Assembly (NCBI GenBank): GCA_937867415.1
Contig: CALMKO010000293.1
Coordinates: forward strand, 1 to 44,066
Length of the DNA stretch: 44,066 nucleotides
Direction of reading: 5' to 3'
DNA from: an uncultured Verrucomicrobiota bacterium
GTDB lineage: Bacteria; Verrucomicrobiota; Verrucomicrobiia; Verrucomicrobiales; Akkermansiaceae
Positions 14,278-42,031 of this stretch are shown in pieces; position 1 is the stretch's first letter; every line of letters begins with the position of its first letter. Below the pieces are notes generated by a model. The model was not told the DNA's origin. It saw only the letters and a list, made by a program, of their open reading frames with translations, and did not search any database. The position numbers and the translations under genes are program-made.

Positions 14278-14374
14278 ATCCCAGATCATATCGCCGCAGT
14301 AAACATTGAAGCGCCATCATTCGGTGCCCATTGCGAAAACTACAATTTCAACAATCCCAATCCCCACCACCATT

Positions 14375-24364: not shown

Positions 24365-24555
24365 ACCCCCGATCCAAGCGAGGGCGACAGGTATTGATAG
24401 TCCCACATTTTCTATTACTGCGAAACATTCTGCTGAAATGGTGCTAAATGCAGAAACACAGCCCCGTAAAGAAAGACATTCATTTCCAACTTCGCGTCCA
24501 TGACTCCAATGACACGCCCCTCTTGACTAGAGTTCCTCACATTCAACATCATCCC

Positions 24556-25827
24556 ATGCCTTCACTGAACCGACGCACGTTTCTTCGCCGGACGGGTATT
24601 GCCATTGCCTTGCCGATGCTGGAATCCATGTGGTCTCCGCGCGCTTGGGCGGCTACCGAGCAGGGGCCGCGACGGTTGGTGACGATCTGCACCACGTTGG
24701 GATTGCACGGGCCTTCGCTCTTTCCGAAGGAATCCGGCAAGGGCTACGCCACGACGCCCTATTTGGATTTGCTGAAGGGCACGCGGGATGATTTAACGAT
24801 CTTCTCGGGGATCTCGCATCCGGACCAGGCAGGAGCGGATGGGCACTCGAGTGAATCCACATGGCTCACAGCGGCCCGCAATCCAGGCTTGGCGGGCTTT
24901 CGCAACACAATTTCGATGGATCAGCTGGCCGCAGAGAAGTTGGGTGTGGTCACGCGGTATGGATCGTTGCAATTAGGAACCAACCACGCCAGTCAAAGTT
25001 ACACGCGTGGCGGGGTGATGATCCCGTCGGATCATCAGCCATCCAAAGTCTTCGCAAAGTTATTTCTGGAAGGCTCGAGAGACGAAATCAAGGCGCAGAT
25101 GCGACGACTGAGTGAAGGTCGCAGCATCATGGATAGCATGAGTGGTGAAGTGAAGCGCCTGGAAGGTCGTGTGGGAGCGGAGGATCAGGAGCGGTTGGAG
25201 GAATACTTCACTTCGGTCAGGGAGATGGAACAACGGTTGGCGGCCTCGGAAGTGTGGGCGCAGAAACCAAAGCCGAAAATCGAAGAGGCCCCGCCGACGG
25301 ATATTCAAGAGGAACAGGATCTGATCGGGCGGATGAAGTTGATCTTCGATCTGGTGCCGCTGGCATTGCGCACGGACTCCACCCGCTTGATCACGATTCT
25401 GGTGCAAGGCCGCAGTGATGTGCCCAAAGTGACGGGTGTGGAAATGGATCACCACAATCTTTCCCATCACGGTCAGGAAGAAAATAAATTGCGCCAACTG
25501 CACTTGATCGAGCGGGCGCAAATGGAAGTCTTTGGCGAGTTGCTCACTTCTCTGAAGGCCAGCATGGAAGGATCACAGAGCTTGTTGGACCGGACTTCCG
25601 TTATCTTCGGCAGCAATCTGGGAAATGCCAACTCGCACGATACTAGGAACCTGCCGTTGATCCTCGCCGGCGGCGGGTTCAGGCATGGGCAGCATTTGAA
25701 ACTGAATGAGAAAGACAATACGCCACTGAGCAATCTATTCGTCCAAGTGCTGCAACGCAACGGCATCGAAATCGATGCGTTCGGCAGTAGCAATGGCACC
25801 TCGGTCCCGGGCTTGGAAACAGTCTGA
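24556..25827 (+). CDS. DUF1552 protein with Tat signal
   Basis: The start at 24556 is chosen because it places a twin-arginine signal at the N-terminus (SLNRRTFLRRTGIAIALPML). An upstream in-frame ATG at 24448 would add 36 unrelated residues. The 423-residue product has DUF1552 landmarks RLVTICTTLGLHGPSLFP, GADGHSSESTWLT, MDHHNLSHHG, and VIFGSNLGNANSHDTRNLP followed by LILAGGG. The family is related to the DUF1501/sulfatase-like fold and has no established reaction. It is almost always beside a DUF1592/DUF1588 gene in Planctomycetota and Verrucomicrobiota, as here (7-bp gap). It is preceded by dyad copy 5, so it seems to belong to the same regulon as the glycosidases. Confidence 0.88.
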   Translation: MPSLNRRTFLRRTGIAIALPMLESMWSPRAWAATEQGPRRLVTICTTLGLHGPSLFPKESGKGYATTPYLDLLKGTRDDLTIFSGISHPDQAGADGHSSESTWLTAARNPGLAGFRNTISMDQLAAEKLGVVTRYGSLQLGTNHASQSYTRGGVMIPSDHQPSKVFAKLFLEGSRDEIKAQMRRLSEGRSIMDSMSGEVKRLEGRVGAEDQERLEEYFTSVREMEQRLAASEVWAQKPKPKIEEAPPTDIQEEQDLIGRMKLIFDLVPLALRTDSTRLITILVQGRSDVPKVTGVEMDHHNLSHHGQEENKLRQLHLIERAQMEVFGELLTSLKASMEGSQSLLDRTSVIFGSNLGNANSHDTRNLPLILAGGGFRHGQHLKLNEKDNTPLSNLFVQVLQRNGIEIDAFGSSNGTSVPGLETV

Positions 25828-25834
25828 TTTGGTA

Positions 25835-28285
25835 ATGACACCAACCATGCAGACATGCTTGAAAATCATTGGATTGCTCATGGGAGCGCTGTGCGCGCAG
25901 ACATTCGCGCAGGATAAATCATTCTTCACGGCGGCCAGTTGTGTGGATTGTCATGACGAGGACACGAAGAAAGGCGGGCTGGACCTGGCGAACCTAACAT
26001 GGAATCCTGCGGAGCAAGGCAATGCGGCTCGCTGGGAGAAAATCCATGATCGAGTGGAACGCGGTGAAATGCCACCGCCCCATAAAGAGAGGCCCGAGGC
26101 GGCATTGCAGGCCGCTTTCCTAACCAGTGTCGCGAATCCACTGCGCGAGTTGGGAATCAAGCAACAGGCTGTGCGCGGGCGCACCGGGTTGCGACGCTTG
26201 AATCGGACCGAATATGAAAACACCGTGCAGCGGCTGCTGGGAATTGATGTCCCATTGCAGCAGATGCTGCCTGAGGAAAGCTCCGGGCAGACGTTCGACA
26301 CGGTGGCGGATGGATTGCGATTTTCCCAACTACAGATTGAGGGATATCTCGAAGCGGCTGACTTTGCACTGGACGCGGCTCTAACGGTGGCTCCGCCGGT
26401 GCCGCAAAAGAAAGAGCGCTTGGTGTTGTCCAATGACAAAGACATTGCGGAGAATATGGCGAAGGCCCAAGGCTCGCCCAAGAGCGATGGAGGGAAACAT
26501 CAGGTGCTCTTCCGTAAAGTGGAGGGTGGGGTAGCGTTCTTTGCGGATAACTATCAACTTGGCCTGCCAACGGTGAGAGCGGGACGTGCGGGTAATTATA
26601 TCATTCGCATTTCAGGCTCCGGATTCCAAAGCCGCGGCGAGCCCGTGACGCTGCTGGCAATGACCGACAATCATAAGGTGCGCAATATCATCGGAACGTG
26701 GGAATTGCCGCCGGATCAACCCCGGGTGGTGGAAGTGACCACGCGCATGGACGCAGGCGATTTTCTGCGGATTGCGCCGCACGATACCAACTTTGACGAC
26801 AAAGGAAAAGGGAACTGGGGCACGGATGCGGCGGTGTATGATGGCGTGGGCATGGCCATTCAATGGGTGGAAATCGAAGGTCCCCTGAGCGAAGCCTGGC
26901 CGCCCCATAGTATTGAACGAACCGTCGGAAAGGTGCCCCGGAAGGATCATGAACCTGGTAAGTACCCGTTGCGAAACGGTCAGCCCGTGGCGTTCGAATT
27001 GGTGCCAGAAGATGCGGGAGCGGCGTTAGCTGCCCAACTGCCCGTGGTGGCAACCCGGGCCTTTCGTCGCCCTTTGGAACCTGGCGAATCAGATGCATTC
27101 GTCAAGTTGGCACAGTCCGCGCTCGCAGACGGAGCTTCATTCATTGATGCGCTTCGCATGGGAATCAAGGCGATCCTGACTTCTCCCCAGTTTCTCCTGT
27201 TTGATGAACGTGTGGGCCCGTTGGGTGGCTTCGCCATGGCGAATCGACTGAGCTATTTTCTCTGGAGCGGCCCCCCCGATGAGGAGTTGCTTACGCTAGC
27301 GAAGCAAGATGGATTGCACAAACCAGACGTGCTCCGGGCCCAGGTTCGACGGATGTTACGGCACGAACGCGGCGGGGCGTTTGTCCGCAATTTCACTGGC
27401 CAATGGTTGGGCTTGCGCAACATCGATGCGACCTCGCCCGACATGAGGTTGTATCCTGAGTTCGACGATGTCTTGAAGCGCTCCATGGTGGGCGAGACCG
27501 AGGCGTTCTTTTCCGAAATGGTGCGGGAGAATCGGCCCGTCACGGATTTCATCCAAAGCGACTGGCTGATGATTAACCGTCGTCTGAGCCGCCACTACGG
27601 GATCCCGGGAGCCACCACGGAACAGTATCAGAAGGTGGTCGTGCCAGCGGGTAATCCTCGCGGCGGCTTGTTGACCCAGGCAGCCATTTTGAAAGTGACT
27701 GCCAACGGCACCACCACCTCACCCGTAGTGCGGGGAACCTGGGTGATGAAGCGTTTGTTAGGAAAGCCTCCCTCGCCACCGCCACCGGTGCCAGCCGTTG
27801 AACCCGACACACGAGGCGCGACAACGATTCGTGAATTGCTTGCCAAACATCGCTCGTCGAGAACTTGCAATTCCTGCCACATCAACATTGATCCGCCGGG
27901 CTTTGCGATGGAGAGCTTCGATGTCATTGGTGGCTGGCGTGATCGGTATCGCTCCACTGACAAAGGAGACCCAGTGCCGGGCCAATTCCGGGGCAACGAC
28001 ATCTCGCAATACAAACTGGGCCTCCCTGTGGATCCCACAGGCGAGCTGTCGGATGGACGGACGTTTCTCGATATCACCAGTTTCAAGCAACTGTTGCTGG
28101 ATGACTCTGATACGGTGCTCCGGGCGGTGACGGGAAAGCTGCTGGTGTATGGAACTGGAGCGAATCTCGATTTCGCAGACCGCACGGCCGTGGCCAAGAT
28201 CGCAGAGCAGACCAAAGCCAGCGGCGGTGGACTGCGCACGTTGATTGAGGAAGTGGTGCTTAGCCCGGCATTTCGGCGTAAGTGA
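25835..28285 (+). CDS. DUF1592/DUF1588/DUF1585-type secreted protein with two haem-type motifs
   Basis: The start at 25835 (ATG, seven bases after the DUF1552 stop) gives a signal peptide (QTCLKIIGLLMGALCAQTFA). An upstream frame opening would overlap the previous gene. The 816-residue product has a c-type haem-binding C36-V-D-C-H40 in a short cytochrome-like domain. A DUF1587 segment (RRLNRTEYENTVQRLLG), a carbohydrate-binding-like sandwich at about 190-360 and DUF1595/1592/1588 segments (RAFRRPLEPGE, NRLSYFLWSGPPDEELL, NFTGQWLGLRNID) follow. A second CxxCH, C678-N-S-C-H682, lies in TCNSCHINIDPPGFAMESFD, and a DUF1585 tail closes the protein. No enzymatic reaction is established for this family; a secreted redox role with the DUF1552 partner is plausible. 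Confidence 0.88.
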   Translation: MTPTMQTCLKIIGLLMGALCAQTFAQDKSFFTAASCVDCHDEDTKKGGLDLANLTWNPAEQGNAARWEKIHDRVERGEMPPPHKERPEAALQAAFLTSVANPLRELGIKQQAVRGRTGLRRLNRTEYENTVQRLLGIDVPLQQMLPEESSGQTFDTVADGLRFSQLQIEGYLEAADFALDAALTVAPPVPQKKERLVLSNDKDIAENMAKAQGSPKSDGGKHQVLFRKVEGGVAFFADNYQLGLPTVRAGRAGNYIIRISGSGFQSRGEPVTLLAMTDNHKVRNIIGTWELPPDQPRVVEVTTRMDAGDFLRIAPHDTNFDDKGKGNWGTDAAVYDGVGMAIQWVEIEGPLSEAWPPHSIERTVGKVPRKDHEPGKYPLRNGQPVAFELVPEDAGAALAAQLPVVATRAFRRPLEPGESDAFVKLAQSALADGASFIDALRMGIKAILTSPQFLLFDERVGPLGGFAMANRLSYFLWSGPPDEELLTLAKQDGLHKPDVLRAQVRRMLRHERGGAFVRNFTGQWLGLRNIDATSPDMRLYPEFDDVLKRSMVGETEAFFSEMVRENRPVTDFIQSDWLMINRRLSRHYGIPGATTEQYQKVVVPAGNPRGGLLTQAAILKVTANGTTTSPVVRGTWVMKRLLGKPPSPPPPVPAVEPDTRGATTIRELLAKHRSSRTCNSCHINIDPPGFAMESFDVIGGWRDRYRSTDKGDPVPGQFRGNDISQYKLGLPVDPTGELSDGRTFLDITSFKQLLLDDSDTVLRAVTGKLLVYGTGANLDFADRTAVAKIAEQTKASGGGLRTLIEEVVLSPAFRRK

Positions 28286-28869: not shown

Positions 28870-30300
28870 ATGTCGCTGACTCCCTCGCTCCTCATCTCAC
28901 TACTCCTCGCAACGACCTGCGTCTCGTTCGCCGCGCCGTTGCCGGGGATCAAGGTGAGCGACAACCGACGTTTCCTTGTCACGGAATCCGGAGCCCCCTT
29001 TTTCTGGCTCGGTGATACGGCATGGGAGCTCTTCCACCGGCTCAGTCGTGAAGAAGCCAATGTTTATCTCGAGGATCGGGCGAAAAAGGGATTCACCGTG
29101 ATACAAGCCGTCGCACTTGCGGAGATGGATGACCTGAACGGGATGAATTTTTACGGAAATCCTGCGTTGCGCGACAAAGATCCGACCCAGCCCGATGTGA
29201 AGGAGGGTGCGGACAACGACTACTGGGATCATGTGGACTATATCGTTGCGAAGGCCAATTCACTGGGTCTTTTCATCGCGTTCCTGCCGACGTGGGGCGA
29301 CAAGTGGAACAAAAAATGGGGGGTAGGCCCGGAGATCTTCACGCCCGCCAATGCCGAAATCTATGGCCGCTGGCTGGGTGGGCGCTACCGCGACGCGCAG
29401 GTGGTTTGGGTTCTCGGTGGAGATCGCCCGATCGAAAGCGACGCGCATCGCGAAATCATCCGTGCCATGGCCCGCGGCATCAAGGCGGGGGACGGCGGCA
29501 TCAATCTCGTTACCTTCCATCCGCCGGGGGGGCATGGCTCGGCGGAGTGGTTTCATGACGAGGAATGGCTCGATTTCAACATGCGGCAGAACGGCCATCA
29601 GGCGGAGTTCACCGGACGTTATGATCAAACCCGGGTGGACTACGACCGAGTGCCGATCAAGCCGGTCTTTGATGCCGAGCCGATGTATGAAGATCACCCG
29701 GTGGGTTTCAAAGCGAAAGAACTCGGCTATTCCACTGCCAGCGATGTCAGGCGGCCGCTTTACTGGAATCTTTTCTCGGGCGCTTTCGGGCACACTTATG
29801 GAAATCACGCGGTCTGGCAGATGTTTGATCCGAATCGTGTTCAGCCGGCCAATGCACCGTTGATGCCATGGTTCGAGGCGATCAAGCAACCCGGCGCAGG
29901 GCAGATGCAACATGCCAAGGCTTTGCTACTCTCTCGGCCCTTCCTCACCCGAGTGCCGGATGATTCCGTCATCGTGACTGGCGTGAATCCAAACATCATG
30001 CCCGGCGCCGGCCGCTCCCGCTTCGTAGCAACCCGGGACACAGAAGGAACCTATGCGATGATCTATGCACCAGTGTCCCGACCTTTCAAGGTGCGCATGG
30101 AGGTCATCAAAAGCCCTCAGATCAAAGCATGGTGGTTCAACCCGCGCGACGGTCAAGCCACGCTCCTTGGAACGTTCAAGAATGAGGGCGAACAGGAATT
30201 CACGCCGCCAAGCCCCGGTGAAGCAGAAGACTGGGTGTTGGTTCTCGACGATGCCACGAAAGACTATTCCACCCCCGGGGCCCACCAATTCAACAAATGA
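28870..30300 (+). CDS. second secreted GH140-family (DUF4038) glycosidase
   Basis: ATG at 28870 gives a signal peptide ([20 protein letters not shown]); an upstream GTG at 28840 is less likely. The 476-residue product has [20 protein letters not shown], candidate catalytic D185 in [10 protein letters not shown] and E270 in [13 protein letters not shown]. The C-terminal domain reads [11 protein letters not shown] to [14 protein letters not shown]. It is a clear paralogue of the 22817 gene and the intact source for relics at 17267 and 19400. Its stop overlaps the GH39 start (ATGA), so the two are translationally coupled. Two related copies in one regulon may handle differently substituted apiose or related branch residues. 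Confidence 0.87.
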
Positions 30301-31955
30301 AGCTACAACTCCTTACCGGCGTTCTTTCCGCCTTGGTCTGCGCCGCCCACGCGGAATCATTCCCCGTCAACATCAAGATCGATGCCTCAAAGCCGACCGG
30401 CCCGCTTAAGCCCATCTGGCGCTTCTTCGGCGCGGACGAACCGAACTATGCCTACATGAAACATGGTAGCGAGCTGCTGGGCGAACTCGGTGCCTTGAAG
30501 AAAGACCAGGTGTTTTTCCGCACCCACAATCTACTGACTACCGGCAAGGGCGAGCACGGGTTGAAATGGGGATCCACCAACGCCTACACCGAAGATGCGG
30601 ATGGAAATCCGATCTACGACTGGACCATCGTCAATCGAATTTTCGATACCTACCGCAGCAAGGGAGTTCGTCCCTATGTCCAGCTCGGGTTCATGCCTAA
30701 GGCGCTGTCGGTGAAACCGGAGCCTTACTCCCAACCCTTCCGTCAGGAGGCCTTCGATGACTTTTGCGCAGGCTGGTCCCACCCTCCGAAAGATTACGGG
30801 AAATGGGAAGAGCTGATCTATCAGTTTGCAAAGAATTGCCTGGAAAGATACGGCGAAGAGGAAGTGTTGAATTGGTATTGGCAGACATGGAATGAGCCGG
30901 CCAATGAGTATTGGCGCGGAAGCCGTGACGACTTTTTCAAGCTGAATGACCACGCCATGAGAGGGGTGCGCCGTGCCATCCCTAAGGCCAAGGTGGGTGG
31001 TCCCCATCTTGCCACCGGCAAAGACGGCGATTGGCTGGAGAGCTTTATCGATCACTGTCTCAAGGGGACGAATTTCGCCAGCGGTGAAAAAGGAACACCA
31101 CTCGATTTCATTTCCTTCCACGCCAAGGGAAAATCCTCTGATGTCGATGGGCGCGTGCAAATGGGCCTTTCCCGCCAACTCAGCATCATAGACGGGGGCT
31201 TCGGCGCAGTTGCGCAGTATCCAGAACTCAAGAGTATCCCGATCGTCATCGGTGAGTCCGATCCGGAAGGCTGTGCAGCCTGCACCTGGCCGAGTCTCGC
31301 CTATCGCAATGGGACCATGTATTCGAGCTACACCGCCGCCAGCTTTCCGAGGAAACTCGACCTCGCGGAAAAACATGGGGTCAATCTTGAAGGGGCACTG
31401 TCCTGGTCGTTTGAGTTTGAAGAGCAACCGTACTTCGCCCCTTTCCGCTCGCTCGCCACCAATGGTATCGACAAGCCTGTGCTGAATGTTTTCCGGATGT
31501 TTTCCCGCATGGATGGCAAGCGACTTCATGTCGATAGCGACGCGGCCGTGCCGCTTGACGATCTCCTGAAAACCGGCGTGCGGGGCAAGCCTGATGTCTC
31601 AGCCCTCGCCGCGCGCGATGGCAACCGCATCACTGTCCTTGCCTGGCATTATCATGATGATGATATCACCGGCGCGGAGGCAAACATCACCTTGAATCTC
31701 AGTGGCACACCAGAAGGGAACCCCAAGGTCACCCGCACGCTGATCGATGAAACCCACTCGAATTCATACACCGCGTGGCTCGCCATGGAATCACCGCAGT
31801 CGCCAACTGCGGACCAGCTCCGTGAACTGGTGGAAGCGAGCCAACTCGCTGTCGTGCCAAACACCAAGGTGGAGAGTCCTGCAGCAGGCGAGGTCGGCAT
31901 CACCTTCCCTCTCGCTCGCCAAGGAGTAACTCTCTTGGAACTGGAGTGGCCTTAA
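30297..31955 (+). CDS. secreted GH39-like glycosidase, paralogue 1
   Basis: The 552-residue product has a signal peptide ([19 protein letters not shown]) and a TIM barrel typical of GH39, with [20 protein letters not shown] and [20 protein letters not shown]. The predicted acid/base is E200 in [12 protein letters not shown] and the nucleophile is E320 in [16 protein letters not shown]-terminal beta domain begins near residue 430 ([16 protein letters not shown]) and ends [14 protein letters not shown]39 includes beta-xylosidases, alpha-L-iduronidases and other retaining enzymes; the sugar cleaved is not predictable here. It is the first of three tandem paralogues separated by about 29 bp, coupled to the GH140 gene upstream. 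Confidence 0.85.
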
Positions 31956-31984
31956 CCTCCCACTGGAATCTCACAATCTATCCA

Positions 31985-33643
31985 ATGAAGCAACAACTCC
32001 TTGCCCTCGTTTGTTCCGCCTTAGCCGGAGCCGCCTACGCGGAATCATTCCCCGTCAATATCAAGATCGATGCCGCGAAGCCGACCGGTCCGCTCAAGCC
32101 GATCTGGCGCTTCTTCGGCGCGGACGAGCCGAACTATGCCTATATGAAACATGGCAGCGAGCTGCTGGGCGAACTCGGTGCATTGAAAAAGGACCAGGTG
32201 TTTTTCCGGACTCATAATTTACTCTCCACTGGCAAAGGCGAGCACGGGTTGAAATGGGGATCCACCAACGCCTACACCGAAGATGCGGATGGAAATCCGA
32301 TCTACGACTGGACCATCGTGGACAAGATCTTTGATACCTACCGCAGCAAGGGTGTGCGGCCGTATGTGCAGATCGGGTTCATGCCGAAGGCGCTATCCGT
32401 GAAACCGGATCCGTACTACGTTCCGTTTCACAATGTGACCTTCGATGAGTTTTGTGCCGGCTGGGCCGAGCCTCCGAACGATTATGCCAAATGGGAGGAG
32501 CTGGTCTATCAGTGGGCGAAACATTGCGTTGAAAGATATGGCGAAGAGGAGGTGCTCCAGTGGTATTGGCAGACATGGAATGAGCCGAACAACGCGTATT
32601 GGGCCGGAACCCGTGAGGAGTTCTTCAAGCTGCATGACCACGCCATCCGGGCCGTCCGCCAAGCCATTCCCAAGGCCAAGGTCGGCGGTCCCGATATCGC
32701 CGATGGCAAGGGCGGAAGCTTCCTTGAAGATTTCCTCGATCATTGTCTCAAGGGCACGAATACCGCCAGCGGTGAAAAAGGCACCCCCCTCGATTTCATT
32801 TCCTTCCATGCAAAAGGAAAACCCACCCAGGTGGACGGTCACGTCCGGATGGGGGTTTCCAATCAACTCAGCGAAATCAACGATGCCTTTGCGGTGGTCG
32901 CGAATTATCCAGAACTCAAGAACACCCCGATTGTCATCGGTGAGTCGGATCCCGAGGGCTGCGCTGCCTGCCAAGGGCCGCAACTCGCCTATCGAAATGG
33001 CACCATGTATTCGAGTTATACAGCCGCGACTTTTCCAAGAAAACTCGATCTCGCGGAAAAGCACGGGGTCAACCTTGAGGGGGCGCTCTCGTGGTCGTTT
33101 GAGTTTGAAGGTCAGCCCTACTTCGCGGGCTTCCGCTCACTTGCTACCAACGGCATCGACAAGCCGGTTCTGAATGTTTTTCGCATGTTTTCTCGCATGG
33201 ATGGCCAGCGTTTGTCGGTCGTCAGTGACGGTGCCGTTTCGCTGGATACCATCGTGAAATCCGGTGTCCGCGAAAAGCCCGACGTTTCGGCCTTCGCCGC
33301 CCGAGATGGCAACCGCATCACGGTTCTCGCCTGGCATTATCATGATGACGATGTCACCGGCGATGCTGCGGATATCACCCTGAATCTGAGGGGCACACCC
33401 GCAGGAAATCCAAAGATCACCCGCACACTGATTGATGAAACCCACTCGAATTCCTTCACCGCGTGGCTCGCCATGGAATCTCCAAAGTCGCCAACCGCCG
33501 ACCAGCTCCGTGAGCTGGTGGAGGCTAGCCAACTCGCTGTCGTGCCCTCCACCAAGTTGGTCAGTCCCTCAGCAGGCGAGTTGGATGTCACCTTCACCCT
33601 CGCCCGCCAAGGAGTGACTCTCTTGGAAATCGAGTGGCCCTGA
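31985..33643 (+). CDS. secreted GH39-like glycosidase, paralogue 2
   Basis: The start at 31985 opens a signal peptide (MKQQLLALVCSALAGAAYA); the 13-codon extension upstream overlaps the previous gene. The protein has the same length (552 residues) as its neighbours and aligns without gaps at the key sites: E200 in WQTWNEPNNAYW and E320 in [14 protein letters not shown]. It differs from paralogue 1 mainly around residues 140-165 (PYYVPFHNVTFDEF) and 210-250, which border the predicted active-site cleft. These differences may tune substrate choice. Confidence 0.85.
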   Translation: MKQQLLALVCSALAGAAYAESFPVNIKIDAAKPTGPLKPIWRFFGADEPNYAYMKHGSELLGELGALKKDQVFFRTHNLLSTGKGEHGLKWGSTNAYTEDADGNPIYDWTIVDKIFDTYRSKGVRPYVQIGFMPKALSVKPDPYYVPFHNVTFDEFCAGWAEPPNDYAKWEELVYQWAKHCVERYGEEEVLQWYWQTWNEPNNAYWAGTREEFFKLHDHAIRAVRQAIPKAKVGGPDIADGKGGSFLEDFLDHCLKGTNTASGEKGTPLDFISFHAKGKPTQVDGHVRMGVSNQLSEINDAFAVVANYPELKNTPIVIGESDPEGCAACQGPQLAYRNGTMYSSYTAATFPRKLDLAEKHGVNLEGALSWSFEFEGQPYFAGFRSLATNGIDKPVLNVFRMFSRMDGQRLSVVSDGAVSLDTIVKSGVREKPDVSAFAARDGNRITVLAWHYHDDDVTGDAADITLNLRGTPAGNPKITRTLIDETHSNSFTAWLAMESPKSPTADQLRELVEASQLAVVPSTKLVSPSAGELDVTFTLARQGVTLLEIEWP

Positions 33644-33672
33644 ATCCCTACAAAGATCCAACCCGATCACAA

Positions 33673-35331
33673 ATGAAGCAACATCTCCTTGCCGCCGTTT
33701 CTTTAGCCCTTGCCGTTGCAGCCAATGCGGAATCCTTTCCGGTGCGCATCCAAATCGACGCATCACAACCCACCGGCCCCCTCAAACCCATCTGGCGCTT
33801 CTTCGGTGCGGATGAGCCGAACTATGCCTACATGAAAAATGGCAGCGAGATGTTGGGGCACCTGGGCTCAATGAAGAAGGACCAGGTGTTTTTCCGCACG
33901 CATAGCTTGCTGACCACCGGCAAGGGAGAGCATAGCTTGAAATGGGGGTCCACCAACGCCTACACCGAGGACGAGGGAGGAAATCCAGTGTATGACTGGA
34001 CCATCGTGGACCGGATTTTCGATTCCTACCGCAGCAACGGCGTCCGCCCCTACGTGCAGTTCGCATTCATGCCGAAGGCCCTTTCGGTGAAACCCGAGCC
34101 CTATCGCCACAACTTTCCAAACTCGACCTTTGAGGATCTTTTTGTGGGTTGGGCCTATCCACCGAAAGACTACGCCAAGTGGGAAGAACTGATCTATCAG
34201 TTCTCGAAACACTGCTTGGAAAAATACGGCGAACAGGAAGTGCTGAATTGGTATTGGCAGACCTGGAATGAAGCGAATACGGTCTATTGGAAAGGCACCC
34301 GTGAGGAATTTTTTAAACTGCACGATCACACCATCCGGGGCGTTCGCCGCGCCATCCCCAAGGCAAAAGTCGGCGGCCCCGACATCGCAAATGGAGATGG
34401 CGGTGACTACCTGAAGAGTTTCCTTGACCACTGTCTGAAAGGCACCAACCTCGCTAGCGGGGAGAAAGGAACGCCGCTTGACTTTATTTCCTTCCACGCA
34501 AAGGGGAATCCCGTCCAGGTCGATGGCCACATCCGAATGGGGATTTCCGAGCAGCTCAAAAATATTGATAATGCCTTCGGCGTGGTCGCGAAGTATCCTG
34601 AACTCAAAAGCACCCCCATCGTGATTGGCGAGTCCGATCCGGAGGGTTGCGCTGCCTGCAAGGGAGGAAACTATGCCTACCGCAACGGGACCATGTATTC
34701 GAGTTACACGGCGGCAAGTTTTCCGAGAAAACTCGATCTTGCGGAAAAACACGGGGTCAACCTCGAGGGCGCGCTCACCTGGGCGTTCGTGTTTGAAGAT
34801 CAGCCATACTTCGCAGGTTTCCGTTCGCTCGCTTCCAATGGCATCGACAAACCGGTGCTCAATGTGTTCCGCATGTTTTCCCGCATGGACGGCCAGCGCT
34901 TACCGGTCGTGAGTGATAGCGCCGTTTCGCTGGATACCATCGTGAAAACCGGCGTCCGCGAAAAGCCGGACGTATCCGCCCTCGCCGCACGATCTGGAAA
35001 CCGGATCACCGTTTTTGCGTGGCACTATCATGATGACGATATCACCGGCCCAGAGGCGAACATCACGGTAAATCTCAAGGGCACGCCGGCAGGCAGTCCC
35101 AAGATCACGCGTAAACTGATCGACGAAAACCATTCCAACTCCTACACCGCGTGGCTTGCCATGGGCTCTCCGCAGTCGCCAACTGCCGACCAGATCCGCG
35201 AATTGGAAGAAGCGAGCCAACTCGCCACCGTGCCTGCCACCAAGCTGGTGAGTCCTGCGGCAGGGGACTTGGATCTCACCTTCAACCTCGCCCGCCAGGG
35301 AGTGACTCTCTTGGAACTGGAGTGGCCCTGA
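33673..35331 (+). CDS. secreted GH39-like glycosidase, paralogue 3 with altered acid/base motif
   Basis: The start at 33673 gives a signal peptide (MKQHLLAAVSLALAVAANA). The protein is again 552 residues. The nucleophile E320 in [14 protein letters not shown] is kept. The acid/base motif reads WQTWNEANTVYW, so the proline that follows the catalytic Glu in clan GH-A (N-E-P) is alanine. E200 itself is retained, so activity is possible but geometry may differ. Other changes include AFVFEDQPYF in place of [10 protein letters not shown]. The paralogue may have a new specificity or be losing function. Confidence 0.84.
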   Translation: MKQHLLAAVSLALAVAANAESFPVRIQIDASQPTGPLKPIWRFFGADEPNYAYMKNGSEMLGHLGSMKKDQVFFRTHSLLTTGKGEHSLKWGSTNAYTEDEGGNPVYDWTIVDRIFDSYRSNGVRPYVQFAFMPKALSVKPEPYRHNFPNSTFEDLFVGWAYPPKDYAKWEELIYQFSKHCLEKYGEQEVLNWYWQTWNEANTVYWKGTREEFFKLHDHTIRGVRRAIPKAKVGGPDIANGDGGDYLKSFLDHCLKGTNLASGEKGTPLDFISFHAKGNPVQVDGHIRMGISEQLKNIDNAFGVVAKYPELKSTPIVIGESDPEGCAACKGGNYAYRNGTMYSSYTAASFPRKLDLAEKHGVNLEGALTWAFVFEDQPYFAGFRSLASNGIDKPVLNVFRMFSRMDGQRLPVVSDSAVSLDTIVKTGVREKPDVSALAARSGNRITVFAWHYHDDDITGPEANITVNLKGTPAGSPKITRKLIDENHSNSYTAWLAMGSPQSPTADQIRELEEASQLATVPATKLVSPAAGDLDLTFNLARQGVTLLELEWP

Positions 35332-35359
35332 AAATTTTATGGAACGCTCATTATCATTT

Positions 35360-37408
35360 ATGAAACCGCTTATTCAACGCTCGTCCGCCGTCCTTGTTAT
35401 GTCCGCAGCCCTTCTGCTAGGCATTTCTTCCACCTCCGTTGCCGAAACTGATGAGCCATGGGGAACTCCATACATCGGTGCGCAGATTTTCACCCAACCC
35501 GGCCAAACGAGTGAGGATATCGAGGGGTGGTTTCGCACGCTGAAAGAGAGTGACATGCCGTATTGCCGCATCCGGCTTGATGAAACGCACATGCGCAAGG
35601 CGGATGGTACTTGGGACTTCTCACTTTACGACACCACCTTTCAGATGGCGGACAAGTATGGTGTCAAGGTTCTGGCAGATTTGTTTCCGAAGGAGACGAC
35701 GGATTGGCGGCTTGCCAAGTTCCCACAGAGTAAGGCCCACCTGGAGGAATGGGCGGAGTATATCAAACAAATGGTGACCCGTTTTCAGAAACACCCGTCG
35801 CTCTATGCCTGGGTGTTGCAGAACGAACCCGGATCCTACGGGATGTATCCCAAAAGCGACTTGTCGGCTGAATTGATGGCCGAATGGCGCGCCGGGCTTG
35901 AAAAGACCACCTACAACAGCAAGGGATATGCCGGGACCAATGGTTTCGACGAGATGAACTTCCAGCGTTTTTACATCAGTTGGTATCTCAACTGGATTTC
36001 GCAGCAAATCCGTAAATACGACAAAGAGACCGAACTCCACGTCAACACCCATTCCATTTATGATAACCTGCCCGACTATGATTTCGCCGCGTGGCGGAAA
36101 TCCAACACCTTCCTGGGCGCTTCCTGTCATCCCAGCCTCCACTATAGCTATTTTGACCGGCCGCAGTTTCCGATGGCCGTCTCGCTCAACTGCGACATCA
36201 CACGGAAAGGTGCCGGACATCTCCCTTTCATCGTTACCGAACTCCAAGGCGGCAACAACACCTACAGCGGCATCCATGAAGTCTGCCCGACTCCCGAGGA
36301 AATCACCCAGTGGATCTGGACATCGGTCGGCAGCGGCGCGAAAGGGGTCGTCTTCTGGACCCTCAATCCAAGAGCAGTCGGTGGAGAGGCCGGCGAATGG
36401 GCAATGGTGAATTTCCAGCAGCAACCGTCAGATCGTTTGAAGGCTGCCAGTAACGCATCGAGGGAGTTGATCAAGAACAAGCAACTCTATGCCACGGCCA
36501 AACCGCTACTGGCCCCCGTCCATCTTCTTTTCGCCAAAGAATCCTTCTGGATGGAGACGGGGAAACAAGGTCGCCCGGGAGATGCGAAAGCTTCCGAAGG
36601 GCGCTTGGCGGGAGCGATGATCAAATCGGTTGCGGCGTGGTATGAAACCCTGCTGGAAAACGGCATCAATTGCCATGTCGCGGAGATGCAGGATTTCGAG
36701 TGGGGGAAACCCGACTACTCCGGCGAGACGATCATCCTGTCACACCAGTTGTCAGTTCCTTCGCGTGATTGGGAAAGACTCGGAAATTTTGTCAAAAACG
36801 GCGGCCGCCTGATCGTGGATGGCTTGACCTTCTTTTTTGACGAGAACCATTTCTCGGTCATGCAGGCCGGATTCCCGCTGCAGGACGTCATGGGCGGGTC
36901 CCTGCAGGAAGTCTTCACCAAACGCGGTGAGTTCTCATTGAAACTCGATGATGGTTCACAGCTCCCAGCAAATTTGTTCAAGGCCAGCCTTCATGTCACA
37001 ACGGGCAAGCCATTTGCAACTGAGGATGGCAAAGTGCTCGGCATGCGCAATTCCAAAGGCAAGGGCAGCACCGTCTGGATTCCTTCCATGCTCGGCATTG
37101 GTGCGCGGCAAGCGGGCAACGAACCGCTGTCCAAATGGTTGATGGGCGAGTTGGCATCCGATCTGGCGAAGTTCCCGATTCGCTTCAAGGAATGGCATTC
37201 GAAACTGTTGATGCGTACGATGAAAACCGACACCGGCTATCTCACGATCCTGGTCAATAAATCCACGGAAACGCACAATGTCCCATTGCTTCTGGCTCCA
37301 GCCAGCCTGAACCCATCGATTCGATTCGCCAATAAAGGTGGAACGGTTGCCGGTTCGGAAGTTCGTATCCACCCAGAAGAGACCATGGTCATCGAGTGGA
37401 AGCAATAG
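35360..37408 (+). CDS. secreted GH42-like clan GH-A glycosidase
   Basis: A 682-residue product starts at 35360 with signal peptide MKPLIQRSSAVLVMSAALLL; an ATG at 35339 would add seven residues and is also possible. The barrel has RIRLDETHMRKADGTWDFSL, predicted acid/base E156 in WVLQNEPGSYG and nucleophile E294 in IVTELQGGNN. A trimerisation-like domain follows (LENGINCHVAEMQDFEWG, FVKNGGRLIVDGL) and a small C-terminal domain ends VIEWKQ. It is distinct from the GH42 at 9095 and lacks the GVAYYPDHG opening, so I call it GH42-like only. It follows the GH39 trio closely and probably shares their transcript behind dyad copy 6. Confidence 0.78.
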   Translation: MKPLIQRSSAVLVMSAALLLGISSTSVAETDEPWGTPYIGAQIFTQPGQTSEDIEGWFRTLKESDMPYCRIRLDETHMRKADGTWDFSLYDTTFQMADKYGVKVLADLFPKETTDWRLAKFPQSKAHLEEWAEYIKQMVTRFQKHPSLYAWVLQNEPGSYGMYPKSDLSAELMAEWRAGLEKTTYNSKGYAGTNGFDEMNFQRFYISWYLNWISQQIRKYDKETELHVNTHSIYDNLPDYDFAAWRKSNTFLGASCHPSLHYSYFDRPQFPMAVSLNCDITRKGAGHLPFIVTELQGGNNTYSGIHEVCPTPEEITQWIWTSVGSGAKGVVFWTLNPRAVGGEAGEWAMVNFQQQPSDRLKAASNASRELIKNKQLYATAKPLLAPVHLLFAKESFWMETGKQGRPGDAKASEGRLAGAMIKSVAAWYETLLENGINCHVAEMQDFEWGKPDYSGETIILSHQLSVPSRDWERLGNFVKNGGRLIVDGLTFFFDENHFSVMQAGFPLQDVMGGSLQEVFTKRGEFSLKLDDGSQLPANLFKASLHVTTGKPFATEDGKVLGMRNSKGKGSTVWIPSMLGIGARQAGNEPLSKWLMGELASDLAKFPIRFKEWHSKLLMRTMKTDTGYLTILVNKSTETHNVPLLLAPASLNPSIRFANKGGTVAGSEVRIHPEETMVIEWKQ

Positions 37409-39006: not shown

Positions 39007-39978
39007 ATGATGACTACCCGATCCAACCTCATCAAGACCCCGTTGATTCTTCTGTGCCTGTCGGTATGCGGAGTCGCTTCCGGGGAGGTGTCCCTATTTG
39101 ACGGTAAAACCTTGGACGGTTGGGACGGGAACCGCGCGGTTTGGCGCGTCGAAGAGGGCGCGATCACCGGCGGGTCGATGCAGGGCAATCCGAACAATGA
39201 ATTCCTCACCACTGACAAACGGTATCGCAATTTCATTCTAAATCTGGATTACCGGATCGTCGGTAGCGATGGCTTCGTAAACGGAGGTATTCAGTTCCAT
39301 AGCGAACGGTTGAAGGACCCGGCTTACGAGATGATCGGATATCAAGCAGACGCGGGTCCAGAGCGCTCGGGGAACCTTTATGATGAATCCCGGCGTAGAA
39401 AAGCGCTGGTGGAGGCTGACAAGATGCTGGTCGCGCAGATCGAAAAGCCGGGCGATTGGAACCGTTTTGAAATCCGCTGCGAAGGTCCACGCATCCGCAT
39501 CACTCTCAACGACCGTTTGGTGGCTGACTACGTTGAAAAAGACCCGGCCATCCCGCTAGAAGGTCTCATTGCTCTTCAAATCCACGGCGACAACAAGGCA
39601 ATCGCCTCCTACCGCAACATTTCCATCGAAGTGCTGCCGGATGATGCCTCGGCGGAGGAGACCAAGCACCCGGCAAGCAGCAAGCTCGGTTTGGAAGCTG
39701 TGCCAGGTGGCTTCAGTGAAATCGAAAAACCCGATGACGAGACGCTTGCGGCCGCGCAATTCGCAGTTTCCGCGCGTGATCCGAATCTCAAGCTCAAAGA
39801 TATCGAAAAAATCGAGAAGCAGATCGTGGCAGGCACCAATTACAGGCTGACGATCATGGTTTCTGACCATGGCAAGGACCGCCGTGCATTAGCGCTTGTG
39901 CTTCGCAAACTGGACGGACAGCACGTGCTCACCTCGTGGAGGTGGGTCGAAGGGGCTTCCTCCGATGCCAAAAAGTAG
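39007..39978 (+). CDS. secreted DUF1080 (3-keto-glycoside hydrolase-like) domain fused to a cystatin-like domain
   Basis: The 323-residue product starts with a signal peptide (LIKTPLILLCLSVCGVASG). The DUF1080 lectin-like sandwich covers about residues 27-212: VSLFDGKTLDGWDGNRAVWR, NGGIQFHSER, GDWNRFEIRCEGPRIRI and RNISIEVLP. Some DUF1080 members hydrolyse 3-keto-glycosides. At about 232-318 a second domain reads VPGGFSEIEKPDDETLAAAQ, then FAV, then Q272-I-V-A-G276-T-N-Y and LTSWRW. This is the cystatin order: N-terminal G-G, helix with A-x-F-A-V, Q-x-V-x-G hairpin, and a Trp in the last loop. Cystatins inhibit papain-like cysteine proteases. The domain could protect the enzyme or have been reused for binding. 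It is 23 bp after the cupin gene. Confidence 0.82.
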   Translation: MMTTRSNLIKTPLILLCLSVCGVASGEVSLFDGKTLDGWDGNRAVWRVEEGAITGGSMQGNPNNEFLTTDKRYRNFILNLDYRIVGSDGFVNGGIQFHSERLKDPAYEMIGYQADAGPERSGNLYDESRRRKALVEADKMLVAQIEKPGDWNRFEIRCEGPRIRITLNDRLVADYVEKDPAIPLEGLIALQIHGDNKAIASYRNISIEVLPDDASAEETKHPASSKLGLEAVPGGFSEIEKPDDETLAAAQFAVSARDPNLKLKDIEKIEKQIVAGTNYRLTIMVSDHGKDRRALALVLRKLDGQHVLTSWRWVEGASSDAKK

Positions 39979-40111: not shown

Positions 40112-42031
40112 ATGAAGAGGATCGTTTACGGATTCATGACGGCACTGGCTTTGCAATCGGTGCTTGGTTCCGAAGCTGCGTTAGGTGAGGAAGCAAGGCC
40201 GCCTTCGGGCAGGATCCTTCATGTCAGTAAATCAGGAGTTGACTCGAATTCAGGTGCGCCTGAATCACCGTTACTCACCATCAATGCCGCCTCAAAAATC
40301 GCCATGCCGGGTGATGAGATCCTAGTGCATGAAGGAACCTACCGGGAATGGGTCAAGCCGGAGCGAGGTGGCACCAGCGAGGACAAGCGCATCGTCTATC
40401 GCGCCGTACCCGGGGCGAAAGTCTATCTGAAGGGATCGGAACAAGTGACCAACTGGGTCTTGCTTCAACCGGGGGTCTGGATGATCGAACTACCGAATAC
40501 CTTTTTTGGAGATTACAATCCATTCGCACTGAACATTTCCGGGGGGTGGCTTGAATACGGCAAGTGGCGTCATCGCGGCTGTGTTTACCTGAATGGAACC
40601 GCGTTTTTCGAGGTGGAATCCATCAATGAACTGGTGGCCACCAAGCACAGTTGGCAAGCCTATACGGATGATAAGAATACCACCATCCACGCCAACTTCG
40701 GGGAGGTGGATCCTAACCAGGAACTCGCGGAAATCAACGTGCGTGAGACTGTTTTCATGCCGGGCCGCTCAGGCTTGAACTACATCACCGTGGATGGTTT
40801 CCACATCAGCCAGGCCGCCACCAACTGGACACCTCCATCAGAAAAACTGCAGATGGGGGCGATCGGACCCAGGCTGGGGAAAAAATGGATCATCGAAAAT
40901 TGTAATATCTCCCACGCGAAATCAACGGGGATCGTGCTCGGTAGTTCACCCGGTGTGGATCATTCGGACATCGATGCCTACGGCGGACACTTGATCCGGG
41001 ACAATCACATCCATCATTGCGGTCAGGCGGGCATCATCGGCATCTATGGGGCCACCCGATCCACCATCACCGGGAATCTGATCGAGGAAATCAATTACTT
41101 GCGCGAGTTTGGCGGATGGGAAACGGCAGGGATCAAGTTCCATCATTCCGTGGATGTGGAGATCTCCAACAATCTGATCCGCGGGATCCGCAATTTGTTC
41201 GACTGCGCGGGATTCGGGATTTGGATCGACTTCGGAAATCAAGGCACCCGAATCTCAAGGAACATCTTCTATGATATTGATAACTACTGTGTCCATCTGG
41301 AGATGAATCATGGACCGATGCTGGTGGATCACAATGTCATCGTCGGTGACACCTTCAGTGTGGATGAGAAACGTGCGAATTTCTCCCAGCACAAGGGCGG
41401 TGTGAACACCAGCACGCACGGGGTCGTCTATGCGCACAATCTTTTTGTCGATGCGAACCAAGCATACTCCGAGTTCACCACCCGGAGTTCGACGTTTTTC
41501 AAGCCACATACCGCGATCACGGCAGGTAAAAGGGATGGGACGCATCGCGAGGACAAGTGGTTCAACAATATCTTCATCAGGCGGGGTCTGGACCGGATTC
41601 CCTACTTGCGATATGTTCCGGTACCCGGTGCAAGTTCGGCACTGAAGATCAACGTAGAGGATTTCATGGGCGCTCCCGACATGCTGGTTGACCATAATCT
41701 TTTTTTGGAAGGAGCCGGCTCCTCATCCTTCGGGGACGCGTACAGTGTGACCGACTCATCTCCAACCCAATTCAAGATTGAAAGCCGCCCGAACGGAGTG
41801 ACCCTGCAAGTCAATCTGAACGATTCCTTCAAGCGGGTGAAGTCACCCATGGTTGATAAAACACTGGCCGGCACGAATTCAATCACCGGCCAAACCATCG
41901 AAGATCAGAATGGAAATGCGATTACCGTCAATTCTGATTTCAATGGTAAAACTTTTGACAAGCCGGTCGTAGGCCCGCTTTCGGATCTTGCAGAAGGTGC
42001 CAATCGGATCTCATGGGATCTGGCTCATTGA
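40112..42031 (+). CDS. secreted right-handed parallel beta-helix protein
   Basis: The 639-residue product has a signal peptide (MKRIVYGFMTALALQSVLGS). It opens like many DUF1565-type helices (ILHVSKSGVDSNSGAPESPL, INAASKIAMPGDEILVHEGT). The helix body has regularly spaced N-N/N-x-I/H-x-I turns: IIENCNISHAKSTGIVLGSS, GHLIRDNHIHHCGQAGIIG, STITGNLIEEINY and VEISNNLIRGI. A C-terminal beta segment starts near residue 560. This fold occurs in pectate lyases, alginate epimerases and glycosidase families such as GH141. I cannot fix the reaction; GH141 would suit a rhamnogalacturonan II setting but is a guess. It is the first gene behind dyad copy 8. Confidence 0.78.
   Translation: MKRIVYGFMTALALQSVLGSEAALGEEARPPSGRILHVSKSGVDSNSGAPESPLLTINAASKIAMPGDEILVHEGTYREWVKPERGGTSEDKRIVYRAVPGAKVYLKGSEQVTNWVLLQPGVWMIELPNTFFGDYNPFALNISGGWLEYGKWRHRGCVYLNGTAFFEVESINELVATKHSWQAYTDDKNTTIHANFGEVDPNQELAEINVRETVFMPGRSGLNYITVDGFHISQAATNWTPPSEKLQMGAIGPRLGKKWIIENCNISHAKSTGIVLGSSPGVDHSDIDAYGGHLIRDNHIHHCGQAGIIGIYGATRSTITGNLIEEINYLREFGGWETAGIKFHHSVDVEISNNLIRGIRNLFDCAGFGIWIDFGNQGTRISRNIFYDIDNYCVHLEMNHGPMLVDHNVIVGDTFSVDEKRANFSQHKGGVNTSTHGVVYAHNLFVDANQAYSEFTTRSSTFFKPHTAITAGKRDGTHREDKWFNNIFIRRGLDRIPYLRYVPVPGASSALKINVEDFMGAPDMLVDHNLFLEGAGSSSFGDAYSVTDSSPTQFKIESRPNGVTLQVNLNDSFKRVKSPMVDKTLAGTNSITGQTIEDQNGNAITVNSDFNGKTFDKPVVGPLSDLAEGANRISWDLAH

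Follow-up and report, generated by a model that had tools for sequence, protein, structure and literature searches.

The locus described here raises the question whether a protease-inhibitor domain has been joined to a bacterial carbohydrate enzyme and, if so, what it would do there. The domain at issue, the cystatin, is a cysteine-protease inhibitor best known from plants and animals. The window, i.e. the whole stretch of 44,066 nucleotides analyzed, comes from a bacterium whose relatives are Verrucomicrobia of ponds and lakes. One of its open reading frames, confirmed at 39007-39978 on the + strand, encodes a protein of 323 aa from an ATG start. An earlier note on this DNA had read a cystatin order into residues 232-318, behind a DUF1080 enzyme. 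The parts of the gene are as follows:

39007..39084, + strand: putative signal-peptide-like N-terminus, without a clear lipobox (residues 1-26; translation judged by eye)
39088..39630, + strand: DUF1080 / 3-keto-disaccharide hydrolase domain (residues 28-208; PF06439, E 9.3e-38)
39631..39702, + strand: linker (residues 209-232; residues 217-230 have pLDDT below 50 in the full-length model)
39703..39948, + strand: cystatin domain (residues 233-314; boundaries from the model and the profile matches)

A cystatin domain behind a DUF1080 enzyme

The enzyme half is a DUF1080 member, scoring 130.6 bits for PF06439 against a cut-off of 26.8, and has relatives among PDB sequences (4jqt, 3e-25; 3imm, 6e-8; 3h3l, 1e-7). 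By family, the window protein is predicted to be a 3-keto-glycoside-cleaving enzyme. It shares the PF06439 domain with BT2157, a 3-ketotrehalose hydrolase, and THTE_1561, an endo-xanthanase/lichenase; in the parts of PMC9007349 cited here, these two are named as the characterised cases of a lone DUF1080 domain, whereas the window protein has a cystatin tail added. NCBIfam gives no family for it, nor for five fused or standalone relatives.

The tail is matched best by PF16845 (SQAPI, a cystatin-like family). When the whole protein is scanned, the score is 30.8 bits (E 3.9e-7), just below the cut-off of 31; the tail scanned alone reaches 34.0 bits, above the cut-off, and the six-frame search gives 33.7 bits. 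PF00031, the profile proposed in the earlier note, stays under its cut-off of 22.2 bits in the window (15.4 bits for the whole protein, 18.8 for the tail), but passes in a protein of the same architecture, L033, which scores above both cut-offs (25.6 bits for PF00031, 41.1 for PF16845). At E 0.01, PF16845 matches all of the 81 aligned domains and PF00031 matches 78. By curated profile cut-off, the tail belongs to the cystatin superfamily (PF00031 / PF16845, MEROPS I25). The name SQAPI, for squash aspartic proteinase inhibitor, denotes a plant subfamily; the Pfam model is common to all 81 domains (E 0.01), and nothing here favours aspartic protease inhibition. A phmmer search of PDB sequences finds potato multicystatin (7.4e-12) and tick cystatins (2e-4 to 9e-4).

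The fold was modelled by AlphaFold2 from A2, in which 81 rows, tails together with their relatives, are aligned. The core has pLDDT 92-97 and its elements follow in the order strand, helix, four strands (domain residues E13-15, H20-33, E37-50, E52-63, E66-76, E82-90): an antiparallel sheet with four or five strands curls around the helix, the arrangement that the earlier note had proposed to look for. Foldseek against the PDB gives 12 matches with E <= 0.001, all of them cystatins, tick cystatins coming first. Alignment by VIA-align places the model on multicystatin 4lzi (Z 13.7, 98 residues at 4.4 A), on tarocystatin 3ima_D from a papain complex (Z 13.0, 80 residues at 1.8 A) and on multicystatin 2w9p (Z 12.7, 80 residues at 1.6 A). 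Monellin and engineered Affimers also score high, with Z about 11-12, so that the fold by itself is no proof of inhibition. In the full-length model, built with three full-length rows among 23, the DUF1080 half is poor (mean pLDDT 56.5), and most cystatin residues once more exceed 90. Profiles, model and structural matches agree: the tail truly belongs to the cystatin superfamily and is joined to a DUF1080 enzyme. The claimed domain stands, with limits at about residues 233 and 314.

The assembly to which the window belongs is a draft in 470 contigs, where an assembly or frame artefact might join two genes, or a remnant domain might persist without selection. The chance of either is practically negligible. 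A survey for DUF1080 proteins with the same tail, also proposed earlier, found two further loci, L033 and L034, both in other assemblies and both with the same fusion architecture; L034 is the same place as L003, with an identical protein. Compared with the window, the linker is shorter in these alignments by 17 residues in L033 and by 11 in L034. Among the three pairs formed by the window, L033 and L034, dN/dS is 0.14-0.18 for the tail and 0.07-0.11 for the DUF1080 part, values that are rough, since dS is near or above 1. The tail is retained by purifying selection, yet is freer and evolves faster than the enzyme part. GC content does not differ between the two (0.554 for the enzyme part, 0.549 for the tail).

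Whole-protein matches (E 1e-5) occur in 57 of 61 same-genus genomes, nearly all of them within the DUF1080 part; the tail is found in 2 of 73 same-genus genomes. At the 19 same-genus DUF1080 loci read (L003-L021), a cystatin is present in L003 only. Since the DUF1080 fusion is known from three loci only (window, L033, L034), and given the tail's presence in 2 of 73 genomes, the tail is dispensable. A viral origin was rejected: relatives of the tail are absent from phage records and viral contigs, and relatives of the enzyme half from viral contigs. Plasmid carriage was rejected as well: 14 plasmid records match the window protein, none covering 80% of the query, and the best 5 of the 14 all stop by residue 227, before the cystatin.

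The gene lies between two predicted carbohydrate enzymes:

35339..37408, + strand: GH42-type beta-galactosidase-like enzyme (PF02449 4e-15, PF08532 1.2e-10)
40112..42031, + strand: GH120-type beta-helix protein (PF21258 3.3e-25)

With two apiosidases, three GH39, GH42 and GH120-type genes, the locus is, as judged from its predicted gene content, a plant-polysaccharide locus. The order of genes in the L034 locus is that of the window (GH39, GH39, GH42, cupin, DUF1080-cystatin, GH120), the GH42-type and GH120-type neighbours being 78% and 77% identical, respectively; no match to the beta-propeller gene of the window was found in the L034 locus. L033 has a cupin and one GH39 gene as neighbours. 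The three GH39 genes of the window stand in tandem (30297-35331, 552-565 aa), and L034 also has two tandem GH39 stretches. Elsewhere in the window, a DUF1552 (HXXSHH) gene and a PSD/PSCyt cytochrome-type gene overlap at 24448-28285 as a pair of planctomycete kind, and two large proteins with autotransporter-type PATR repeats are found at 14306-17215 and 19889-22507.

The module on other proteins

A pattern scan of contigs yielded 215 pattern matches, 162 of them relatives; of these, 80 (L033-L112) were sorted by partner with phmmer: 25 are joined to BNR_2, 5 to a third partner and 2 to DUF1080, while 48 are apparently standalone. Within these 80 of the 162 relatives, a BNR_2 sialidase-like enzyme is found C-terminal to the cystatin in at least 25 loci (L036, L040-L052, L055, L057, L060-L063, L065, L068, L069, L076, L078); PF13088 was confirmed in all four that were scanned (L036, L040, L043, L078), with E from 1.5e-82 to 4.1e-92. 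In five loci (L035, L037, L038, L039, L056) an N-terminal cystatin precedes a third partner domain of about 300 residues, conserved across the five, which starts with KIIPGQVI(V/I)PTG in L037 and its relatives, and in L037 covers residues 116-416. This domain has no Pfam match above cut-off in the two proteins scanned, CusF matches being below it, and nothing among the PDB sequences matches it at E 1 or better. The cystatin is C-terminal to DUF1080 and N-terminal to both BNR_2 and the third partner; all three partner families have putative signal-peptide-like starts, as judged by eye.

The standalone relatives are mostly 110-170 aa long, with putative signal-peptide or lipoprotein-like starts, again by eye; 7 of the 48 frames are longer (191-370 aa), which we take for over-extension upstream. 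By record title, their carriers include Verrucomicrobia, Lentisphaerae, Acidobacteria, Proteobacteria, Planctomycetes and Ignavibacteria; among the BNR_2 fusions, two loci have the record title Prosthecobacter sp. Four assemblies (CAMAUZ01, RFVF01, WRPG01, SIBB01) each contain both a BNR_2 and a third-partner fusion. For BNR_2 relatives in the window's own family, none of the 30 loci read has a cystatin match.

Judged from this distribution, the cystatin domain appears to be a mobile module. Its presence on three kinds of protein indicates a reusable module, not a chance fusion, and its absence from most BNR_2 and DUF1080 relatives indicates that it was gained or lost on both enzymes. In a tree of the cystatin domains, based on few columns, the DUF1080 tails form one group (support 100/97) and the third-partner domains another (98/84), while the BNR_2 domains need three changes; the DUF1080 tails adjoin the BNR_2 domain of L036 (92/81, not starred). 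Topology tests neither reject nor establish one clade of all fused domains (p-AU 0.494) or one clade of BNR_2 domains (p-AU 0.545). L060 and L062 have identical cystatin domains; the titles of their MAG records name Akkermansia muciniphila and Klebsiella pneumoniae, probably in error.

Bacterial cystatins as such are already known. Kordis and Turk (2009) describe bacterial cystatins and stefins as rare and patchy, in few phyla, with Verrucomicrobia and Planctomycetes scored as having neither lineage; the fusions that they report are a Polaribacter triplication joined to another gene and a B. fragilis stefin-chagasin (PMC2784779). These proteins belong to the same superfamily as the domains described here; the parts of that paper cited here name no glycan-enzyme fusion, unlike the present set. 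Cystatin is also listed, in the part cited of a domain survey, among eukaryotic-like domains over-represented in pathogens (PMC8442362), bacterial cystatins come up in a 2012 review (PMC3594739), and the papain family is the subject of a 2023 paper (PMC10380794). The open-licence literature returned no paper joining cystatin, bacteria and DUF1080; among the matches listed, there was nothing on cystatin-sialidase, cystatin-glycoside hydrolase or Verrucomicrobia fusions, and no paper devoted to testing the function of bacterial cystatins. For the modular use of the domain on glycan enzymes, the open-licence papers searched gave no description.

The papain-binding edge

Cystatins contact papain through an N-terminal Gly, a QxVxG loop and a second loop. 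The corresponding positions of the tail are:

39706..39711, + strand: N-terminal G234-G235, papain-binding edge (alignment of 81 domains)
39820..39834, + strand: QIVAG, the QxVxG first hairpin loop (residues 272-276; alignment rows)
39907..39921, + strand: second hairpin loop KLDGQ, without the plant-cystatin Trp (residues 301-305; model and alignment)

Three of the four motifs placed by the earlier note are where it had put them: G234-G235, A-A-Q-F-A-V at 249-254 (given as A-A-x-F-A-V) and Q-I-V-A-G-T-N-Y at 272-279. The fourth, a W in the final loop, was misplaced: the model puts W311, invariant in the alignment, within its last strand (domain residues 82-90), and KLDGQ forms the loop, so that the reading of W311 as the loop-2 Trp was dropped.

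The conserved N-terminal Gly of cystatins is present in the tail. Its first Gly is kept in 80 of the 81 domains (32/33 fused, 48/48 standalone) and the second in 33/33 fused and 35/48 standalone, where the 33 fused domains are those of the window and of 32 loci, some near-identical to one another. QxVxG is found in 81/81 rows, a count which is biased, 80 of the rows (L033-L112) having been picked by a pattern that includes QxVxG. Profile searches, which do not require the exact motif, recover it as well: PF16845 finds matches in 8 of 387 phylum genomes, with QxVxG in 8/8 places (window, L026-L032). The A2 profile finds 15 places in 13 of 384 class genomes, 14 of them full-length (weakest E 2.6e-28); QxVxG is present in 14/14, of which 11 were, by eye, already A2 rows and only L119, L120 and L122 are new.

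As for the second loop, when plant and tick cystatins are aligned, the plant loop-2 Trp faces a gap in the bacterial profile, and a Trp occurs in the second-loop segment of 0/33 fused and 10/48 standalone domains, in 9 of the latter as QAW, QPW or QSW. The tail lacks the second-loop Trp that marks the Trp-bearing lineages (phytocystatins, type 2). The second loop of sialostatin L2, an active inhibitor of cathepsin L, is also without Trp in the alignment, and stefins are not known to have it: the absence of the Trp thus weakens the case for inhibition and does not exclude it. A standalone subgroup (L070, L075, L081, L082, L087, L089, L094, L105, L110) has a longer second loop with a QAW-like Trp, similar to that of tarocystatin, and may for this reason be nearer to plant cystatins in binding. 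Two further positions set the window apart from most fused domains: residue 269 is I, where 25 of the 33 have A, and residue 299 is L, where 30 of the 33 have W.

Among known inhibitors, phytocystatins (multicystatin 4lzi/2w9p, tarocystatin 3ima, oryzacystatin-I 1eqk) share the fold of the tail, give its best profile matches and resemble it in the ARFAV-like helix motif and the QVVAG hairpin; the tail differs from them in being bacterial, enzyme-fused and without Trp in the second loop. Tick sialostatin L2 (3lh4) has a similar VAGTNYRL hairpin and a similarly Trp-less second loop, although tick cystatins, including the Ornithodoros cystatin 3l0r, are animal proteins not fused to an enzyme. Type 2 cystatins carry disulfides, whereas Cys is found in 0/33 of the fused domains.

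Possible roles of the tail

We give an even chance to the tail being a working cysteine-protease inhibitor, which spares its partner enzyme from foreign papain-like proteases. The DUF1080 enzyme of a plant-polysaccharide locus would have gained a cystatin tail, whose N-terminal Gly and QxVxG hairpin would insert into the catalytic cleft of a protease of the papain type; the target would be met outside the bacterium, in algal or plant debris, or come from grazing protists or competing microbes, and, once blocked, would spare the attached enzyme. The conserved N-terminal Gly and QxVxG, and the occurrence of the module on three kinds of protein, fit such a protective role, and suggest, short of proof, that the fused proteins bring their own defence against proteases. 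Where a plant-polysaccharide locus is used, papain-like proteases of plants, algae or protists can be anticipated. A target outside the cell is also made likelier by the distribution of C1 peptidases: PF00112 matches 1 of the 13 cystatin-bearing class genomes and 55 of the 371 others, the PF00112 and A2 searches, run with the same settings, being taken as one set of 384 genomes, whose drafts may miss genes. Against protection of the enzyme stands the proposal, in the part cited of PMC9007349, that a Caulobacter DUF1080 protein is periplasmic: large outside proteases may not reach that compartment. Further points against a working inhibitor are the missing loop-2 Trp, the motif-selected QxVxG counts, the dispensability and faster change of the tail, and its departures at residues 269 and 299.

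In a wider form, the proposal is that a phytocystatin- or stefin-like module serves as portable armour, moved between the termini of secreted glycan enzymes in Verrucomicrobia and possibly beyond; this we hold tentatively, at somewhat less than an even chance. If it were true, resistance to proteases would be part of each exoenzyme's own chain, a form of protection not found in the open-licence papers searched. The 33 fusions provide a natural, testable context, in which the partner hints at what is protected or where the inhibitor is delivered. Should the tails inhibit, a single polypeptide would link the breakdown of glycans by bacteria with foreign proteolysis, and the module would be a ready tag for shielding industrial enzymes from cysteine proteases; should they not, the cystatin fold would have been reused on several bacterial proteins, which is also unexpected.

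Such a reuse, as a module for binding or assembly that has lost its inhibitory action and attaches to itself, to a glycan or to a partner on the cell surface, is unlikely, with roughly one chance in four by our estimate. The structural matches include monellin and Affimer chains, a sign of how versatile the fold is, the loop-2 Trp is missing from all 33 fused domains, W311 in the last strand is invariant, and the cystatin may stand at either end of its partner. Against a binding module count the Gly-Gly, for which the core offers no evident position and which is kept in 32/33 and 33/33 of the fused domains, and the QxVxG kept at the profile-found places, of which only a few come from outside the set picked by motif. 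An inhibitor located in the periplasm or on the surface might instead protect the cell, and not the enzyme, from the digestive cathepsins of grazing protists. This is rather improbable, although 48 of the 80 relatives sorted (out of 162) look standalone, which indicates that the domain is useful without an enzyme, the DUF1080 proteins may be periplasmic (PMC9007349, in the part cited), and Kordis and Turk, in the part cited, propose for bacterial cystatins the role of emergency inhibitors against host proteases (PMC2784779): protection of the cell does not account for the way in which the domain was joined to other proteins time and again, with two such fusions in each of four assemblies.

It is very improbable that the cystatin regulates a papain-like protease of the bacterium itself. 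The window genome does have one partial C1 peptidase-like match, covering positions 122-207 of the profile, but the co-occurrence of PF00112 with cystatins, in the counts given above, does not support a regulator. The C1 peptidase-like match lies in another contig of the genome (C216:21994-22284), within a frame of 560 codons.
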